Shown here: positions 10,744 to 25,562 of the stretch, one piece after another | Layout: each line of letters starts with the position of its first letter | How positions within the stretch are numbered: the stretch's first letter is position 1 | Assembly: GCA_025353015.1 (NCBI GenBank) | Contig: JANXRM010000474.1 | Span: 1 to 32,579, forward strand | DNA from: Hyphomicrobiales bacterium | GTDB taxonomy: Bacteria > Pseudomonadota > Alphaproteobacteria > Rhizobiales > Hyphomicrobiaceae | Direction of reading: 5' to 3' | DNA length: 32,579 nt | Translations under genes and position numbers: made by a program | The notes under the pieces: model-generated | Database searches by the model: none | The model's input: only the letters and a program-made list of their open reading frames with translations | What the model was told of the DNA's origin: nothing

Positions 10744-10944
10744 TGTCTTGACCCGCGAATTGTCGATTTTTTGGCAAACTAATGCGGCCGGGCGTCCATG
10801 TCACCCGCCTTGCAGCGAGATGGTTGCACTGCACTGGCGATCGGTTGTGCGGTGCGGGATAACCCCCTTGTGGATGGGGGGCATTGTCCGCGAGGCTCAC
10901 AGGACGGCACTGCTTCGGGGGAAGCTTGGTGCCGGGAGGTGCAA

Positions 10945-11349
10945 ATGCGCGACCGCTGGATCGGTGCCAGTCTAAGTTTTATCGGGGGAGTCCTGGCGAT
11001 TGGCTTGAACGCCTCAGTTCAGGCCGGGCCCCTCGCTGCGCACGGCTCGGTACAATCAGGCACGGCGCAAGCCGAAGCTTTGGGCGTCGAAACTGAGCGG
11101 ATTGAAACCGTGCGCATTGAAAAGGTTCGGGACGATACCACCCGGCGCGGTCGGTGCCGCCAAGCGAAAGGTGTGGGATCGGCGCCAACAGAGCGCCTTG
11201 CCAAGCTGCAGGCTTGGGAGCGTGTCGCGCAGGCGACGGGTAACTGGCCAGTCCCGGCCGATACGTTCAGCAACGAGCGTTACCAATGCCGGAAAGCCGG
11301 CGTGACGTGGGAATGTCGAAGCTTGATCGAAATATGTAAACCGGCCTGA
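10945..11349 (+). CDS. Small exported protein of unknown function with four cysteines
   Basis: I do not recognise this family. The ORF track starts at 10798, but an ATG at 10945 directly behind GGGAGGT gives a 134-aa product with a clean Sec-type signal peptide (MRDRWIG, a hydrophobic core, then NASVQAG). The mature part holds a charged stretch with repeated ETERIETVRIEKVR wording and a C-terminal cysteine motif, YQC...WEC...EICKPA, plus one earlier Cys. Four cysteines in an exported protein suggest two disulfide bonds in the periplasm. It is divergent from the monooxygenase and followed after about 200 bases by another unknown gene. The strong ribosome site and signal peptide argue that it is real. 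Confidence 0.7.
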   Translation: MRDRWIGASLSFIGGVLAIGLNASVQAGPLAAHGSVQSGTAQAEALGVETERIETVRIEKVRDDTTRRGRCRQAKGVGSAPTERLAKLQAWERVAQATGNWPVPADTFSNERYQCRKAGVTWECRSLIEICKPA

Positions 11350-11542: not shown

Positions 11543-11562
11543 CAACACATCTGGATGTGTTG
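11543..11562. promoter_or_regulatory. Perfect 9-bp inverted repeat at the start of the next gene
   Basis: CAACACATC and GATGTGTTG form a perfect inverted repeat with a 2-base centre, lying across the GTG candidate start and just upstream of the ATG candidate start of the 160-aa gene. It could be an operator or an mRNA hairpin limiting translation. It is not followed by a T-run. The surrounding gap (11350-11556) is less GC-rich than the coding sequence and otherwise holds nothing I can assign. Confidence 0.35.
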
Positions 11563-11571
11563 AAAATACCG

Positions 11572-12039
11572 ATGCTCGCAATCGATAGCCGTCAGTTTTT
11601 CTCGCATGTCGAGCAGGTTGTGTCCGCATGCCCGCGGGCTGAGCTTGTTCGTGGGATCGCCAGCATGCGTATCCCGGCGCCACGACCCCAAAGTGAGAAC
11701 TGCCAGCAAGGCTTCGACATTTGCGTCACCTTCGATGACCGGAAGTGCCGCTTGCGCTTCGACCGCTGGTCACTAGATTTTGCGCGCAACGACCACAGGG
11801 CGATGGAGCTCTTTGAGCAAGCCATGCATGGCGACGTTCGGCTGCGCGTCGATACGATCGGCGGCGAGCCGTGGCACTGGACGCTGGAACGGCACACCAG
11901 CGACAAGGGCTGGGTCGCCGAGCAGTCCATGGGCGTGCTCAACCTGCGCTTCTGGGGACAAAGGGGCGTGACCTACCTGTGCAACGATTTCGGCTTCCAG
12001 GCGTGGACGCCATTAGCCAATCGCGCCAACGCGGCCTGA
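11572..12039 (+). CDS. Hypothetical protein, 155 aa
   Basis: I do not recognise this protein. Two starts are possible, a GTG at 11557 and the ATG used here at 11572, and neither has a clear ribosome site. The product is acidic-basic mixed and rich in Trp and Arg, with no signal peptide or membrane segment and three cysteines. Its composition (RLRFDRWSLDF, GEPWHWTLERH, LNLRFWG) suggests a compact soluble beta-rich fold. No catalytic motif is visible. It is convergent with the DUF817 gene 46 bases away. The length and stable codon use across the frame favour a real gene, but a shadow cannot be fully excluded. Confidence 0.55.
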   Translation: MLAIDSRQFFSHVEQVVSACPRAELVRGIASMRIPAPRPQSENCQQGFDICVTFDDRKCRLRFDRWSLDFARNDHRAMELFEQAMHGDVRLRVDTIGGEPWHWTLERHTSDKGWVAEQSMGVLNLRFWGQRGVTYLCNDFGFQAWTPLANRANAA

Positions 12040-12085: not shown

Positions 12086-13024
12086 CTATTCCGCTGGGCT
12101 CACTTCCGATTGCCCGGGGGTCCGTTCGTCCGTTTCGACAGGCAGTCGTTTGATGCCGCTGACGGCCGCGACCAGCGTATAGCTCAAGATCATCAGCAGG
12201 AACCATGCCCCAAGCTTGCCGAATGAGACGAGCGTCCAGCCGTGTTTCTGATGTGGATAAATCCAAGCGGCCGTGAATGTACCGATGTTCTCCGCAACCC
12301 AAATGAATAGCGCCGTCAACAGCGCCGCCAGCAGCATCGGCATAGGACGATGCACATGCCAGATTTTATAATGAATGATGCACGGTCCAAGCAGAACGGC
12401 AGCGGCTGCAAACAGGATCGGTCGAATATCGGTAATGTAATGGTGCGAGAAAAAATTCACGTAGATGGCAAGTGAAAGCGCGCCAAGAGCCCACAGCGGC
12501 GGATGCCGGGTAAACCGGAAATCGAAGAGCCGCCAGCAGCGCGCCATGAACGAGCCGATCGCGGCATACATGAAGCCGGTGAACAGCGGCACGCCGCCGA
12601 TCCGCAGCAGACTCGGTTCCGGGTAAATCCAGGACCCGGCCGAAGTCTTGAAGATCTCCATCGCAGTGCCGACGATGTGAAACAGCAGGATGACGCGCGC
12701 CTCCTCCCATGTCTCAAGTTTGAACGCCAGCATCAGCGCCTGGATCAGAACCGCGGCAATAACCAGGAAATCGTAGCGGGCAAACCACGCGCCTTTCGGG
12801 TACCAGAGATATGTCCCCATGATGAGCCCCAGCATGAGGGCTGCGAACAGGCACGCCCAGGCCTGCTTCACGCCGAAGCGTGCGAATTCGTAGAGAACGT
12901 GCGTAGCCCGCCGTTGGGTAGCCCAGGTCCCGAGCCGGGCTTCACGGGCGATGAATCGGGCAAGGAATGGCCAATTGCGCGCGGCCGAGGCCGCCTCAGG
13001 TCGTACGTCCAGGACGTCACCCAT
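12086..13024 (-). CDS. DUF817 family integral membrane protein
   Basis: The 312-aa protein matches the DUF817 family (relatives include Bacillus YoaT), polytopic inner-membrane proteins without a known function. After a cytoplasmic N-terminus of about 45 residues there are roughly eight hydrophobic segments. Conserved-looking polar positions lie at segment ends: FKLETWEEARVI, FHIVGTAMEIFKT with Glu in the helix, GSWIYPEP, FFSHHYITDIRP, and a second WIYPHQ after AENIGTFTAAW. Repeated W-I-Y-P motifs and buried His and Glu could bind a ligand or metal, which is inference. The gene is divergent from the DUF1552 operon across a 340-base gap. Confidence 0.85.
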   Translation of the reverse strand: MGDVLDVRPEAASAARNWPFLARFIAREARLGTWATQRRATHVLYEFARFGVKQAWACLFAALMLGLIMGTYLWYPKGAWFARYDFLVIAAVLIQALMLAFKLETWEEARVILLFHIVGTAMEIFKTSAGSWIYPEPSLLRIGGVPLFTGFMYAAIGSFMARCWRLFDFRFTRHPPLWALGALSLAIYVNFFSHHYITDIRPILFAAAAVLLGPCIIHYKIWHVHRPMPMLLAALLTALFIWVAENIGTFTAAWIYPHQKHGWTLVSFGKLGAWFLLMILSYTLVAAVSGIKRLPVETDERTPGQSEVSPAE

Positions 13025-13364: not shown

Positions 13365-14801
13365 ATGGGTCGTCCCAGTGAGTTATTGTCGCGCCGCGAC
13401 TTGATCAAGACGTATGGCCTTTCCGCTTTGCTGCTGCATCCGGTACTGCGCAGCATGGCGTACGCCGCGGAAACGCCGCTCGCGACCGCACCGCGCTACG
13501 TCATGTTCTTCAAAGGCGGCTCGTTCTATCCGAGCAAGACCAATCCGAGTTCGCTGACCAATCTCGCGGGCACACCGATTGCGCCGCTACAGTCGCACGC
13601 GTCCGACCTGATCCTGTTCAAGGGCATGAATATCCACGGCGGCAGCCCGAAGGCCGATGGCTACCAGGAGGAGCATGCCGCCGGCGTCTATGGCTGCACC
13701 ACAGGCAATCGCTACAAGTATTCCAAGAACGACGCCTACTACGCTTACACGGACAACGAATCGATCGATATCCGTATTGCCAACCACTACAAATCCCGCG
13801 CCGACCTGAAGGACGTGCCGATTGCCAGCCTCCACGTCGGTGGTGGCGCCCATTCCGATGCCGACAACGTCGGTGTCGGCAACCGCTATATCTCGTTCCG
13901 CAACCGCATGGCCGGCGATACGCGTTACGGCAACGCCATCGAGCCGATGCAGGACGCAGGACAGGTATTTGACACGCTGATGCGCGCCGCCAGTACATCG
14001 TGCGGTGTCGCCTCGAATCAGCCGAGCGGCGACAAGGTTAAGATGGGCGCAGCGCTGACCAATCGAACCAGCGTGATCGATTCCATGCTGTCGGATCTTG
14101 ACGATGCCAAGCGGCGCTTCGGCATGGACAGCGAGCACGCACGCAAGCTCGATGGCCTCAAGGAAAATTGGAGCCAGACGCAGAAATCCGCGCAAAAGCG
14201 GGTGGAGGCGCCGCAAAGCAGCGCCAGCGCCAAAGGCCGCCAGTGCGCAGCCCCAAGCCGGCCGACTGCCAACGGCGCCAACAAGAAGAATCTCGACGAC
14301 CTGTCACCGGTGCACGACCAGATGATCAGTCTGATCAAATTTGCGTTCGAAACCGATTTGACGCGCGTGGCCGCCTTCACGCTCTCGGGGGCCTCCAGCG
14401 GCCAGATCTGGCCGAGCAAGGGCATCCACAAGGCGCATCACACGCTCGAGCACAACGGCGACGTCGACAGCCTCGTCAAAATCGACACGTACTATTCCGA
14501 AAAGTTCGCGGGTCTGCTGACCGCGTTGAAGTCCATCGACGACGGCGGCGGCAAGACGGCCTTGCACAACAGCTCGGTATTTCTCGGCATGGAATGCTGG
14601 AGCAACAGCTCCAGCGGCCATTACCTGACTAACATCCCGTTCATCCTGGCGGGCCAAGGCGGCGGCCGCTTCAAGACTGGCCAGATCGTGGATGCCAAGG
14701 GCCGCAATAACAACGACGTGCACATCTCCTGCCTCAACGCAGCCGGTGTCGAAACGAACACATTCGGCCTTGCCAGCCTCTGCAAAGGCCCGATTGTTTG
14801 A
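13365..14801 (+). CDS. DUF1552 family protein, Tat-exported
   Basis: The 478-aa protein matches DUF1552, a family abundant in Planctomycetes, Verrucomicrobia and Myxobacteria and distantly related to DUF1501/alkaline-phosphatase-like folds. It begins with a twin-arginine signal (LSRRDLIKTYG, a hydrophobic core, then AYAAETP), so it should fold in the cytoplasm and be exported by Tat. Family blocks are PRYVMFFKGGSFYP near residue 45, QEEHAAGVYGCTTG near 105, the SPVHDQMISLIKFAFETDLTRV segment near 315, and C-terminal ECWSNSSSGHYLTNIPFILAG and NDVHISCLNAAGV. An AGGAG lies 11 bases before the ATG. The partner DUF1592/DUF1588 gene starts 43 bases downstream, so the two form one unit. The function is unknown. 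Confidence 0.9.
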   Translation: MGRPSELLSRRDLIKTYGLSALLLHPVLRSMAYAAETPLATAPRYVMFFKGGSFYPSKTNPSSLTNLAGTPIAPLQSHASDLILFKGMNIHGGSPKADGYQEEHAAGVYGCTTGNRYKYSKNDAYYAYTDNESIDIRIANHYKSRADLKDVPIASLHVGGGAHSDADNVGVGNRYISFRNRMAGDTRYGNAIEPMQDAGQVFDTLMRAASTSCGVASNQPSGDKVKMGAALTNRTSVIDSMLSDLDDAKRRFGMDSEHARKLDGLKENWSQTQKSAQKRVEAPQSSASAKGRQCAAPSRPTANGANKKNLDDLSPVHDQMISLIKFAFETDLTRVAAFTLSGASSGQIWPSKGIHKAHHTLEHNGDVDSLVKIDTYYSEKFAGLLTALKSIDDGGGKTALHNSSVFLGMECWSNSSSGHYLTNIPFILAGQGGGRFKTGQIVDAKGRNNNDVHISCLNAAGVETNTFGLASLCKGPIV

Positions 14802-14844
14802 AGGTGATTGTTTGCGGCGATCATTCGAGGGTGTGGTGACGACG

Positions 14845-16533
14845 ATGCGCCCAAAGCTGATCCATAAATGCTGGTTCCAGGCGACCGCTTCAGCGATGGC
14901 AATGGCCATTGGCTTGGGATTGGCCGTCGGTGCAGGCGGGGCGGGAGGAATAGCCGCTGGCGCCGCCGAGCCGGACGTCAATGCCGTCGCGCGCAAGTAT
15001 TTTCCCAGCGACGACGCCGACGTCGCGCCGAAGCGCATTTTCCGGCTGACGCGCGATCAGATCGATATCACGGTGGCGTTTCTGCTGCCGGGCTTTTACA
15101 CGAAATCCGTCAAGGAGGTGATGGCGCGCGATCCCCTGCAGACGAACTACGAATACGCGGAATTACTGAGCTTCAATGCCGCCAACATCGGCCCGCTCTC
15201 AGGCTGGATCAAGGCCATCGCAGAGCGCGTCCGCGCCAAACCGGCAGGCGTGATCGATTGCGGCACTGCGAACGATCCCGAATGCCTGAAGGACAAGGCG
15301 CGAGCGTTCATTCTCAAGGCTATGCGCGGCGATCTCAGGGGCGCCAAGGTCGACGAGATGGCGACTGCCTACGCCAGCGGCGTCACAAGTGCCGGCCACG
15401 CCCAGGCAACGGCCGATCTCGTGGAACGCGTGCTCGCATCGCCCTATTTTCTGTTCCGCAAGGAGCAGGTGGATGTGCGCCGCGGCCGTCCCGTACCCGG
15501 TCAGGATCTGGAAGCACTGACGTATATCTTCGCCGATAGTCCGCCTGAGAAGCTGAAGTTCGATTCCAACAACGCCCTCGCCTACCTTCAAACACCCGCC
15601 GATGCCGCACGCACGGTCCAGGAGATCGTCGCCTCGAAGGATGCCCGCGAGAAGCTGGTTCGCTTCTTCAAGGCTTGGCTCGAAATCAAGGAGCCGAACG
15701 AGTTCACGATCTCGCAGAAGGCATTTCCGGCCTTCGATGCCAAGCTGACAGCCGCGATGCTCGACGAGACCGATCGGTTTCTCCGGGCGCAGTTGGCCAA
15801 ACCCGTGCCAAAGCTGACCGACATCACGCAATCGAGCCAGTCATTCGTATCGAAAACGCTGGAACCAATCTACGGGTCGACCAAGGCGGCCGATGCGGCA
15901 GGCACCAAGCCGGTCCAGCTTGATCCGAGCCAACGCTACGGCATCTTCTCGCAGCCGGCGCTGATCGCCTCGCATTCCGGCCCGACGGATACGCGGCCGA
16001 TCAAGCGCGGCGTGTTCTGGGTACGCAAAGTCATGTGCATGGAGATGGAGCCGCCACCGCAAGGGCTCGACATCACGATCTACAACGAAAGCAAGGCTGT
16101 CACGGAACGCCAGAAGATCGAAGACGCGACCGGGGGCAAGGCCTGTATCGGCTGCCACAAGATCATCGATCCCTTCGCCTTCTTCCAGGAAAGCTATGAC
16201 GCGCTCGGCCGGTGGCGGACGACCGACAACGGCGCGCCGGTCGACAGCAGCATGGAGATCGATTTTCTCGACGAGCCGCCCGCGAAAACCACAACACCGG
16301 TCGAAGCGCTGAAGGTGTTGACCAATTCCGCGATGTTCAAGCAGTGTTTCGCGCGCCAGATGTTCCGCTTCTACATGGGGCGCAACGAGGAGCCGGCCGA
16401 CGATCCGCTGCTTCGGCGCATGTTCATCACGTTTGCCGAGAACAACAGCCAGGACATCATGTCGTTGATTGCAGTGATGGCCGATCGCGTCCGCCGCGGC
16501 CCAAAGAGCGACGATAGACCGCCGGTTCAGTAA
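14845..16533 (+). CDS. Exported DUF1587/DUF1595/DUF1592/DUF1588/DUF1585 protein with one c-type heme motif
   Basis: The 562-aa protein has a Sec signal (MRPKLIHKCW, a hydrophobic Ala/Gly core, then AAGAAEP). The domain order follows the planctomycete pattern: RIFRLTRDQIDITVAFLLPG (DUF1587-like), a DUF1595 part, ERVLASPYFLFRKEQ opening DUF1592 near residue 200, RYGIFSQPALIASHSGPTDT (DUF1588), and MFKQCFARQMFRFYMGRNE (DUF1585). CIGCH at residues 434-438, followed by DPFAFFQESYDALGRWR, is the DUF1588 CxxCH motif and predicts covalent heme c. The N-terminal cytochrome (PSCyt1) domain of many relatives is absent. GTG codons at 14833 and 14836 are alternative starts. It is predicted to be periplasmic and redox-active, with an unknown substrate. 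Confidence 0.9.
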   Translation: MRPKLIHKCWFQATASAMAMAIGLGLAVGAGGAGGIAAGAAEPDVNAVARKYFPSDDADVAPKRIFRLTRDQIDITVAFLLPGFYTKSVKEVMARDPLQTNYEYAELLSFNAANIGPLSGWIKAIAERVRAKPAGVIDCGTANDPECLKDKARAFILKAMRGDLRGAKVDEMATAYASGVTSAGHAQATADLVERVLASPYFLFRKEQVDVRRGRPVPGQDLEALTYIFADSPPEKLKFDSNNALAYLQTPADAARTVQEIVASKDAREKLVRFFKAWLEIKEPNEFTISQKAFPAFDAKLTAAMLDETDRFLRAQLAKPVPKLTDITQSSQSFVSKTLEPIYGSTKAADAAGTKPVQLDPSQRYGIFSQPALIASHSGPTDTRPIKRGVFWVRKVMCMEMEPPPQGLDITIYNESKAVTERQKIEDATGGKACIGCHKIIDPFAFFQESYDALGRWRTTDNGAPVDSSMEIDFLDEPPAKTTTPVEALKVLTNSAMFKQCFARQMFRFYMGRNEEPADDPLLRRMFITFAENNSQDIMSLIAVMADRVRRGPKSDDRPPVQ

Positions 16534-16541
16534 CCAGCGGC

Positions 16542-16560
16542 TTGGCGATTAGGTCGCCAA
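16542..16560. terminator. Hairpin between convergent DUF1592 and phosphatase genes
   Basis: TTGGCGA and TCGCCAA form a perfect 7-bp stem with a 5-base loop in the 43-base gap between two convergent genes. No T-run flanks it. Its position favours a shared transcription end signal, but the missing U-tract keeps confidence low. Confidence 0.4.
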
Positions 16561-16576
16561 ATAGGTGGCCCCGCCC

Positions 16577-22453: not shown

Positions 22454-23734
22454 ATGCATGTGCTGTTGATCGGATCGGGCGGCCGCGAGCATGCCCTGGC
22501 ATGGGCCATGGCAGCGAGCCCGCTGTTAACGAAACTGACGTGTGCGCCGGGCAACGGCGGCATTCAGGAGTTTGCCGGCTGCGGTGCCCTCGATCCAGCC
22601 GACCATGGCCAGATCATCGCTTTCTGCCGCGAAAAGCGGGTCGATTTTGTCGTGATCGGACCTGAAGCGCCGCTGGTGGCAGGGCTGGCGGACGACCTCG
22701 GCAAGGCTGGCATCAAGCATTTCGGCCCGTCGGCGGCAGCGGCAAAGCTCGAGGGATCGAAGGGCTTCACCAAGGATCTTTGCGCCGAGTTCGGTATCCC
22801 AACGGGCCCTTATGGCCGCTTCCGCGACCGCGCCAGCGCCCAGGCCTACCTCACGAAGCAGCCGGTGCCGATCGTGGTCAAGGCCGACGGCCTGGCCGCG
22901 GGCAAGGGCGTCGTCGTCGCCATGACGCGGCCTGAAGCCGAAGCCGCAGTCGACGCCTGTTTCGCGGGCGCCTTCGGGTCAGCCGGGGCCGAAGTCGTGA
23001 TCGAAGCCTTCCTCGACGGCGAGGAAGTGAGCTTCTTCGCGCTTTGTGACGGGAAGAATGTCCTGCCGCTCGCGACCGCCCAGGACCACAAACGGGTCGG
23101 CGATGGCGATACCGGCCCGAACACTGGCGGCATGGGGGCCTACTCGCCAGCGCCCGTGGTGACGCCCGGGATGCACGATCGCATCATGGCCGAGATCATC
23201 CGCCCGACCGTTGCCGGCATGGCCAAGCGTGGCACGCCGTTCCGAGGCGTGCTCTTCGCCGGCCTCATGATCACGCAAACGGGGCCGCAGCTGATCGAAT
23301 ACAACGTCCGCTTCGGCGATCCTGAAACCCAGGTACTGATGCTGCGCTTGAAGTCCGACCTGCTGACGGCGTTGCTCGCCACGGCCGACGGCGGTCTCGG
23401 CGCGTTCGATCTCAGGTGGCACGACGATCCGGCGCTGACCGTCGTCATGGCGGCCAAGGGCTATCCCGGCACGTATGCCAAGGGCACCGAAATCCGCGGG
23501 CTGGACGCGGCAGCCAACATTGCGGGGGTCCAGATCTTTCATGCCGGCACCACCCGCGATGGCGATCGAATTCTCGCCAACGGCGGCCGGGTCCTCAATG
23601 TCACCGCGCGCGGCAGAACAGTGCGCGAGGCGCAGACACGCGCCTACCAGGCCATTGACCACATCGATTGGCCGGAAGGTTTCTGCCGCCGCGATATCGG
23701 CTGGCGTGCCATCGAGCGCGAGGGGATGAAATGA
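22454..23734 (+). CDS. purD: Phosphoribosylamine-glycine ligase
   Basis: The 426-aa cytosolic enzyme is GAR synthetase, the second step of purine synthesis, joining glycine to phosphoribosylamine with ATP. Signatures are [17 protein letters not shown] at the N-terminus, [35 protein letters not shown], the ATP-grasp segment [16 protein letters not shown] near 142, [23 protein letters not shown] near 215, and [12 protein letters not shown] near 290, where Glu and Asn bind magnesium. The length is normal. It is divergent from xseA across 141 bases. Its stop codon overlaps the start of the first dehalogenase-like gene (ATGA), so the two are co-transcribed and probably translationally coupled. Confidence 0.98.
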
Positions 23735-24654
23735 CGGCCGCAGACGACTTATTTCCCGGTTTTGGTGAACACTTGATCGACACGGGAGAAGCCGTCATTC
23801 ATGCTCGCGTCGGCGGCAGCGGTCCAGGATTGTTGCTGCTGCACGGCTATCCGCAAACCCATGCAATGTGGCATCGGGTGACACCGGCACTGGCGCAATC
23901 GTTCACGGTGATCGCAGCTGATCTGCGCGGCTACGGGCAAAGCTCCTGCCCGCCGACGGACATCGAACACAAGCCCTATTCCAAGCGCAGCATAGCGCGC
24001 GACATGATCGTGCTGATGCGCCACTTCGGTTTCAACCAGTTCGCCATCATGGGCCACGACCGGGGTGCGCGCGTCGCCTATCGCATCGCCCTCGATACGC
24101 CGCAACTGGTCGAGCGGCTGGTGCTGCTCGATATCATAAGCACGTTCGATCAATGGTCCGCAGCCAACCAGAAAATGCGTTTGACGATGTTCCATTGGGC
24201 ATTCCTGGCCCAGCCTGCGCCGATGCCCGAAAGCCTGATCGGCCGTGGTCCAGTCGAATGGCTGGATGGCCGATTGAAGCGCGGACTGAAGTCGCGCGCG
24301 CTCGGCGGATTGGATGTCAGGGCCGTTGTCAGCTACCGCGGCAACTTCTCCAACTCTGATCGCATGCACGCGACCTGCGAGGATTTCCGGGCAGGTGCTG
24401 GCTGCGATCTGGCCGCCGATCAAGCCGATATGGAGGCTGGGCGGCGAATTGAATGCCCAACGCTGGTGCTTTGGGCGGATCACGGCCCGCTGGCTGACCT
24501 ATCGGATCCACTGCCACTCTGGCAACCCTGGTGCCGCGATCTCACCGGCGCCAACATCGATTGCGGGCATTTCATTGCCGAGGAATGCCCCGATATACTG
24601 CTCGATCATGCCCTGCCCTTTCTCCAGCGCCGCAATGACGGAGCCCAATCATGA
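23731..24654 (+). CDS. Haloacetate dehalogenase-family alpha/beta-hydrolase, paralogue 1 (altered halide pocket)
   Basis: The 307-aa protein aligns without gaps to the fluoroacetate dehalogenase family, as I recall it from Rhodopseudomonas palustris RPA1163. The nucleophile Asp110 (GHDRGAR), carboxylate-binding Arg111 and Arg114, acid Asp134, His155-Trp156 ([11 protein letters not shown]) and His280 (CGHFIAEE) all fall at the reference numbers. Two pocket positions differ: Phe219 replaces the halide-binding Tyr (CEDFRAG) and Gly185 replaces Trp. It may therefore use another halide or substrate, or hydrolyse an epoxide or ester. The ATG overlaps the purD stop and follows AGGGGATGAA. Its own stop overlaps the next gene in the same way. 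Confidence 0.92.
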
Positions 24655-25562
24655 GCCAGCTGCCCGATCTTTTTCCCGGTTTCGCCGAGCGCCGCTTTAA
24701 AACCGGTGATGCCGAAATCTTCGCCCGGATCGGCGGCTCTGGTCCGCCCTTGCTGCTGTTGCACGGCTATCCGCAGACACACGTCTGCTGGCATAAGATT
24801 GCGCCAGCCCTGGCCAAACATTTCACGCTGGTCATTCCCGATCTGCGCGGCTATGGCGTGAGCACCGGCCCGAAAACCGATGCCGAGCACAGGCCCTATT
24901 CCAAGCGCGCCATGGCCACGGATTTTGCGGCTGTCATGACGGCATTGGGCCATCAGCGGTTTGCGGTCGTTTCGCATGACCGCGGCGGCCGTGTCGGCTA
25001 CCGAATGGCGCTGGATTTCGCTGACCGCGTCGAGCGATTGGCGACGCTGGATATCGTCACGACGTACGACGCCTGGACCGACATGACCAAGGAGAACGCC
25101 ATCGGGCGCTTTCACTGGGCATTTCTGGCGCGACCGGCCCCGTTCCCCGAGACGATGATCGGCGCAAACCCGGTCTATTTCCTCGACTATCTGCTGGCAC
25201 AATGGACGCAAGCGAAGGATCTGAGCGCGTTCGATCCGGGCGCCTTGGCCCACTATCGGGCAGCCTTCTCCCGGCAGTCCGTGATCCACGCAAGTTGCGA
25301 GGATTACCGCGCGGGTGCTGCCTTCGATCCCAATCTTGATGCCAAAGACAAGGCTTCAGGCAAACGCATCACCATGCCGATGCTGGCCTTGTGGGGAGCG
25401 CAGCGCAAGAACGGTTTCGTCAACAAGCCACTCGAAACCTGGAAATCCTGGTGCCCGCACGTGCGCGGCGAACCGATTGAAAGCGGGCATTTCCTGGCCG
25501 AGGAGGCCCCTGATGCAACGCTCGCAGCGCTACTACCGTTCCTGCTCGAAGGACCCCGGTAG
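24651..25562 (+). CDS. Haloacetate dehalogenase (fluoroacetate dehalogenase family), paralogue 2
   Basis: The 303-aa protein is a tandem paralogue of the preceding gene, and both keep the opening DLFPGF and [11 protein letters not shown]. It retains every residue I checked for fluoro/chloroacetate hydrolysis at the RPA1163 numbering: nucleophile Asp110 with Arg111 and Arg114 (SHDRGGRVGYR), Asp134, His155-Trp156 (FHWAFLA), Trp185 (LLAQWTQAKD), Tyr219 (CEDYRAG) and His280 (SGHFLAEE). The predicted reaction is hydrolytic dehalogenation of a haloacetate to glycolate in the cytosol; the actual substrate is untested. It is coupled to paralogue 1 by an ATGA overlap and followed 45 bases later by the patatin gene. 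Confidence 0.94.
   Translation: MSQLPDLFPGFAERRFKTGDAEIFARIGGSGPPLLLLHGYPQTHVCWHKIAPALAKHFTLVIPDLRGYGVSTGPKTDAEHRPYSKRAMATDFAAVMTALGHQRFAVVSHDRGGRVGYRMALDFADRVERLATLDIVTTYDAWTDMTKENAIGRFHWAFLARPAPFPETMIGANPVYFLDYLLAQWTQAKDLSAFDPGALAHYRAAFSRQSVIHASCEDYRAGAAFDPNLDAKDKASGKRITMPMLALWGAQRKNGFVNKPLETWKSWCPHVRGEPIESGHFLAEEAPDATLAALLPFLLEGPR

Follow-up and report, generated by a model that had tools for sequence, protein, structure and literature searches.

The 32,579-nucleotide stretch analysed here (the window; positions 1 to 32,579 of contig JANXRM010000474.1, Hyphomicrobiales bacterium assembly GCA_025353015.1, family Hyphomicrobiaceae) carries a pair of genes that encode a DUF1552 protein and a DUF1592/DUF1588 protein with a single heme-c attachment motif, both predicted to be exported. 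The two genes are neighbours on the + strand, separated by 43 bases, and each is present as a single copy in the 4.86 Mb genome. Their guanine-plus-cytosine contents of 0.605 and 0.614 resemble those of the neighbouring genes (0.629 for the window as a whole). A preliminary description of the locus had reported this arrangement, copy number and base composition, together with a twin-arginine translocation (Tat) signal on the first protein and one CIGCH in the second. All of these features were recovered in our analysis, the export signals of both proteins being assigned by eye. Coordinates are collected in Table 1.

The first gene matches the PF07586 profile with 110.6 bits (curated cut-off 30), in line with the family placement originally made. 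Its N-terminus holds SRRDLIK, and the two arginines of this motif (R10/R11) are kept in 55/56 and 53/56 DUF1552 proteins, respectively. The literal HXXSHH motif of the family is replaced by HTLEHN. Since the serine and the last histidine of HXXSHH also vary in most alphaproteobacterial DUF1552 members, the two outer histidines constitute its conserved part. Four histidines, H104, H359, H363 and H419, are invariant in all 56 proteins, and D135 is found in 55 of them; together, these five residues form a candidate metal site. A further candidate metal site may be provided by HSDAD (13851–13865), which is invariant in 11/11 members of the subfamily of the window protein and is located in an insertion of about 28 residues that occurs only in this subfamily. 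Within this subfamily, the DUF1552 subunit is the more conserved partner, with identities of 61–80% as opposed to 42–58% for the DUF1592 protein. The predicted structure of the DUF1552 protein reached a mean predicted local distance difference test (pLDDT) score of 47, and its best matches in the PDB were almost all a sulfatase, phosphoglycerate mutases and phosphopentomutases, with E ≥ 0.05. As these enzymes belong to the alkaline phosphatase superfamily, the model gives faint support to the alkaline-phosphatase-like subunit that had been suggested for this gene.

The second gene scores above the cut-offs of PF07631 (56.3 against 23.3), PF07627 (83.8 against 27) and PF07624 (30.5 against 25.8). 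This order of domains, combined with one CxxCH, is that of PSCyt3/X132-type proteins. DUF1595 (PF07637) reaches 32.2 bits and so lies just under its cut-off of 34.2. A profile search at E ≤ 0.01 did not find DUF1587 (PF07626) in this protein, nor was it found in the relatives from Myxococcaceae and Bdellovibrionales. Of the order DUF1587/1595/1592/1588/1585 given previously, the last three domains therefore stand, DUF1595 is marginal and DUF1587 drops out. An N-terminal PSCyt1 cytochrome was not found either, as already remarked in the preliminary description, and searches with profiles and against structure databases detected neither an X183 cytochrome nor a carbohydrate-binding module (CBM). 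C434, C437 and H438 of the CIGCH motif are invariant in 28/28 homologues. Because no second histidine or methionine is conserved among the homologues aligned, the DUF1588 heme may possess an open coordination site. The structure model (pLDDT 70, predicted template modelling score 0.74) is mostly helical and has no fold match in the PDB. The alignments used for structure prediction were shallow (11 and 9 sequences), and a PDB sequence search returned no relative of either protein.

Table 1. Positions of the gene pair and its features in the window.
Feature	Position	Strand	Remark
DUF1552 (PF07586, 'HXXSHH') protein, gene 1	13365..14801	+	478 aa; predicted Tat export; proposed metalloenzyme subunit
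Twin-arginine signal MGRPSELLSRRDLIKTYGLSALLLHPVLRSMAYAA of gene 1	13365..13469	+	read by eye
Subfamily-only insertion of ~28 residues with AHSDAD, gene 1	13785..13871	+	candidate extra metal site
HHTLEHN, equivalent of the family motif in gene 1	14436..14456	+	from alignment
DUF1595(weak)-DUF1592-DUF1588-DUF1585 protein, gene 2	14845..16533	+	562 aa; Sec-like signal (by eye); one predicted heme c
CIGCH heme-c attachment motif, DUF1588 domain of gene 2	16144..16158	+	
Synteny boundary	16534..16576	.	collinear with congeners to the right, not to the left

The preliminary description had proposed a redox role for the pair and a survey of conserved neighbourhoods. Beyond the domain content and conserved residues described above, comparison of relatives established that the pair co-occurs with, and in several genomes adjoins, a divergent gene pair for electron transfer, here called P0001/P0002, which lends independent support to such a role. 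The membrane protein encoded by P0001 has a hydrophobic N-terminal part, where four histidines are invariant, and a C-terminal part with three CxxCH motifs. It has no match in Pfam or the PDB, and its four transmembrane histidines are suggestive of a di-heme b cytochrome. P0002 combines a membrane anchor, two [4Fe-4S] motifs and an FAD-NAD(P) domain of the thioredoxin-reductase/YpdA type. Of the 103 family genomes, nine encode the DUF pair, and the same nine and no others have a P0001 orthologue at E < 1e-79 (Fisher p 4e-12 by genome and 4e-4 by genus); the P0001/P0002 module is present in 9/9 of these genomes versus 1/94 of the others. Within two genera (g1 and g19), presence and absence of the two gene pairs vary together. 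The DUF pair directly adjoins P0001/P0002 in five of the nine genomes (G008, G848, G858, G416 and, across a contig break, G846), and does so in two different arrangements. In G031 both lie on one contig, while the pair of G847 is found on a 3.3 kb contig that is too short to reveal adjacency.

A further gene, P0004, is often associated with this set. It encodes a small exported PAN-like protein, whose relative P0003 exceeds the PF00024 cut-off. P0004 adjoins the pair in G012, G416 and G846, and P0001 in G031. A search at E < 1e-28 detects it in 6/9 pair genomes, including that of the window (contig C230), but in 0/7 family genomes lacking the pair and in 0/9 when all other genomes searched are counted. 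In the parts of the literature available to us, we found no link between DUF1552 or the X132 module and a chain of the P0001/P0002 type. The linkage of the DUF pair to a membrane electron-transfer module is the new element of this study, and it makes the function of the pair testable.

The pair is rare in its order, as had been surmised. DUF1552 exceeds the cut-off in 4/398 genomes of the order, all four from the window's own family, and in 6/385 genomes sampled from the class. A profile of the subfamily detects the pair in 9/103 family genomes and 4/25 genera, and in 0/3 congeners. In Myxococcota, DUF1552 is ordinary, with matches in 89/147 genomes of the class. Beyond the family, close relatives were found only in one Myxococcaceae metagenome-assembled genome (MAG; 64% identity) and one Bdellovibrionales MAG (60%). 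The contig of the former also encodes MutS and TPR/Ser-Thr kinases, which are usual in Myxococcota. The window protein shares 21–25% identity with the other alphaproteobacterial DUF1552 proteins compared.

In a tree of 57 DUF1552 proteins, the 11 subfamily members form one clade (support 100/100) on a stem of 2.42 changes per site. The Hyphomicrobiaceae copies are monophyletic (99/89), and the window protein is sister to the other eight. DUF1552 and DUF1592/1588 are expanded in Planctomycetes and Verrucomicrobia, and a planctomycete origin had been entertained for the pair. The one planctomycete DUF1552 in the tree is placed outside the window clade, whose members from outside the family are the Myxococcaceae and Bdellovibrionales MAGs. 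A planctomycete donor as the nearest source was therefore rejected, with few planctomycete sequences in the comparison. The old acquisition postulated earlier relied on base composition, which is a weak argument when taken alone; monophyly and the 72–80% identity of the family copies in four genera to the window protein are a stronger one. As far as tested, the sequences point to a known pair in a form that is genuine, rare and divergent and not of planctomycete descent. Gene order also varies in the comparison. DUF1552 precedes DUF1592 in 9/9 Hyphomicrobiaceae pair genomes, whereas DUF1592 comes first in 15 other alphaproteobacterial pairs, in two Sphingobium pairs and in those of Planctomyces and Pseudoalteromonas, as well as in the two clade members from Myxococcaceae and Bdellovibrionales. 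The Bdellovibrionales DUF1592 protein carries an additional N-terminal cytochrome c, which the Hyphomicrobiaceae proteins lack.

The right flank of the pair (16.5–26.6 kb; PTP, waaA, lpxK, xseA, purD, two hydrolases and a patatin-like gene) is collinear with that of three congeners. This shows the contig to be authentic, and the possibility of a contaminant was rejected. Synteny stops exactly at the gene adjoining the pair. As the stretch past the PTP gene differs among the congeners too, the region is best described as a variable site, and a clean insertion into a fixed site is unsupported. The previous description of the surroundings as housekeeping-rich is too simple, as only the right flank is syntenic with the congeners. 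The position at a synteny break, the patchy spread over 9/103 family genomes and none of three congeners, and relatives in two other phyla would suit a horizontally spread cargo pair that serves no fixed pathway and is tied to P0001/P0002 and P0004 through common inheritance within one clade, not through joint function. We consider this quite unlikely, given the direct adjacency in 5/9 genomes in two arrangements, the three-way adjacency with P0004 and the joint presence/absence variation within g1 and g19.

Several other genes of the window attracted our attention. The gene for a DUF817 membrane protein (12086–13024; 336.5 bits) diverges from that for DUF1552 across a gap of about 340 bases. 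Two small genes without a Pfam match (10894–11349 and 11557–12039) are flanked by an FMO-like gene and DUF817, on the left side of the window that lacks synteny. At 23668–25562, two overlapping alpha/beta hydrolase genes appear to have arisen through tandem duplication and are also doubled in the congeners.

We propose that the DUF1552/DUF1592 pair supplies the periplasmic half of an electron-driven oxidoreductase module whose genes are dispersed, a reading to which we assign a probability of roughly 0.42. In this model, P0002 would draw electrons from cytosolic NAD(P)H, and the putative heme b of P0001 would move them through the inner membrane to the triheme-c tail of the same protein. The tail would then reduce the single DUF1588 heme, which would either feed electrons to the DUF1552 subunit or activate an oxidant there. 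DUF1552 would be metal-dependent, with a probable alkaline-phosphatase fold, and would bear the substrate site. The reaction of the module would consequently use up reductant and not be a source of it. In other lineages, quinol or sugar oxidation could take the place of NAD(P)H as the source of electrons. A more detailed version of this model seems doubtful to us. It envisages that five genes of Hyphomicrobiaceae encode a transmembrane redox system driven by NAD(P)H. The cytosolic Fe-S flavoprotein and the b/c-heme membrane protein would power a periplasmic metalloenzyme, composed of DUF1552 as the alkaline-phosphatase-fold subunit and DUF1592/1588 as a new all-helical heme-c subunit. Beyond carrying electrons, the heme of the latter would itself take part in oxygen-dependent, peroxide-dependent or reductive chemistry on a periplasmic substrate.

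Several observations weigh against the proposed electron-driven module. In the genome of the window, its genes are scattered over contigs C213 (the window), C337 and C230, so that linkage there rests on the relatives. One genome of the family without the DUF pair, G026, encodes a shorter, intact P0001/P0002 (L161:6461–9171; 412 aa, three CxxCH), which is an independent use of the membrane chain. P0001 was found neither in the Myxococcaceae and Bdellovibrionales pair genomes nor in the other alphaproteobacterial DUF1552 genomes searched. Neither partner thus strictly requires the other, and outside the family other electron partners must serve the pair. Furthermore, the nine positive genomes come from four genera and should not be counted as nine independent events. 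The heme b, electron direction, metal site, complex, reaction and DUF1552 fold are inferred, the DUF1552 model having a pLDDT of 47 and PDB matches no better than E 0.05. As for the substrate, distant relatives prompt the guess that it may be a carbohydrate or another recalcitrant organic molecule.

The same occurrence of the pair without P0001/P0002 in Myxococcaceae, Bdellovibrionales and other alphaproteobacteria would agree with electrons flowing the opposite way. DUF1552 would then oxidise or hydrolyse a periplasmic compound, and the DUF1588 heme would pass the electrons to the respiratory chain, in the manner of a dehydrogenase. On this view, P0001/P0002 would either offer those electrons another path or belong to an unrelated system that shares the niche. 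The fusion of DUF1592 to a pyrroloquinoline quinone (PQQ)-type sugar dehydrogenase, in which the heme could be the electron acceptor, fits such a role, and the cytochrome c' and b561 neighbours seen in one sphingomonad could run in either direction. Within the family, however, the pair was never seen without P0001/P0002. Moreover, returning electrons from a heme c to NAD(P) runs energetically uphill, and the NAD(P)-linked partner therefore points to electron export. We regard the dehydrogenase-like role as unlikely, albeit a serious contender. Being rare and single-copy and having named electron-transfer partners, the alphaproteobacterial version of the pair narrows the problem to a few genes that lend themselves to deletion or reconstitution. 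If true, the electron-driven model gives the electron direction, the likely catalytic subunit and what to measure.

Parts of this system have counterparts in the literature. No function has been published for the pair, and no reaction assigned to it, in the literature we found, as the preliminary description had assumed. Its designation as undescribed was nevertheless too strong, since the region encoded by gene 2 corresponds to the CAZy module X132 (PMC8981238, PMC10916295, PMC12542752). Two of these papers define X132 as a C-terminal CxxCH region that starts with DUF1587, in Cellvibrio Cbp2D and Teredinibacter TERTU_2913/TERTU_3803, and call it structurally and functionally uncharacterised (PMC8981238, PMC10916295). 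The equivalence of X132 with the DUF1587-to-DUF1588 region is probable from the DUF1587 label and the domain order of a Pseudoalteromonas protein. This protein (L148:2712–9185; 2157 residues) consists of three CBM26 modules, a glucose/sorbosone dehydrogenase (the PQQ-type sugar dehydrogenase), a cytochrome c like PDB 7B21 (X183) and DUF1587-1595-1592-1588-1585, and is encoded next to DUF1552.

The correspondence with X132 raises the possibility that the pair acts in polymer breakdown in the manner of Cbp2D (X183-X132), either by delivering electrons to oxidative polysaccharide-cleaving enzymes or by cutting the polymer directly. Growth on insoluble cellulose requires six genes, among them cbp2D (PMC12542752), and relatives contain CBM26 and CBM2 modules (PMC6004670). 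Cbp2D and TERTU_2913/TERTU_3803 are secreted and large, and their several domains include X183 cytochromes and often CBMs, whereas gene 2 encodes a bare X132-like part, without X183 or CBM, and has a separate DUF1552 partner. No such partner is mentioned in the available portions of the Cbp2D literature, and the Teredinibacter X183 domains that were tested failed to drive a lytic polysaccharide monooxygenase (PMC10916295). We therefore judge a role in polymer breakdown improbable.

The sphingomonad-type operon A-DUF1592-DUF1552 comprises the same two families with a single heme. It differs from the window pair in its opposite gene order, an identity of 22–25% and the extra exported gene A nearby, and P0001 was not found in the sphingomonad-type genomes tested. 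In Sphingobium herbicidovorans (pMSHV), DUF1592, DUF1552, cytochrome c' and cytochrome b561 follow in series. By analogy, this locus and that of Pseudoalteromonas suggest that the same logic of electron delivery recurs. A literature search retrieved no publication joining Sphingobium, tomatine and cytochrome c. Gene A encodes an exported protein of about 390–410 aa without a Pfam or NCBIfam match. In 15 sphingomonad-type loci (L035–L047, L144 and L145) it precedes DUF1592-DUF1552 directly or lies close to them. This conserved operon is often followed by a Lipoprotein_15 (PF03640) gene or by cytochrome c'.

P0002 resembles the YpdA-like, thioredoxin-reductase-type ferredoxin/bacillithiol reductases, its FAD/NAD(P) domain matching both YpdA and thioredoxin reductase. 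Unlike these enzymes, it has a membrane anchor and a 2[4Fe-4S] domain in addition, and its gene adjoins that of a multiheme membrane protein. In freshwater Verrucomicrobia, PSCyt3 genes lie beside a family of unknown genes; the study that noted this gives their functions as unknown and suggests carbohydrate metabolism (PMC5615132). The PSD4/PSCyt3 and DUF1552 genes of Planctomycetes, Verrucomicrobia and Myxococcota share with the window pair the Pfam families, the adjacency of the genes, one DUF1588 heme and a Tat-type DUF1552 protein. In comparison, the window clade is set apart by its long stem, the lack of DUF1587 and of an N-terminal cytochrome, and the 28-residue HSDAD insertion, and in Hyphomicrobiaceae DUF1552 lies upstream and not downstream of its partner.

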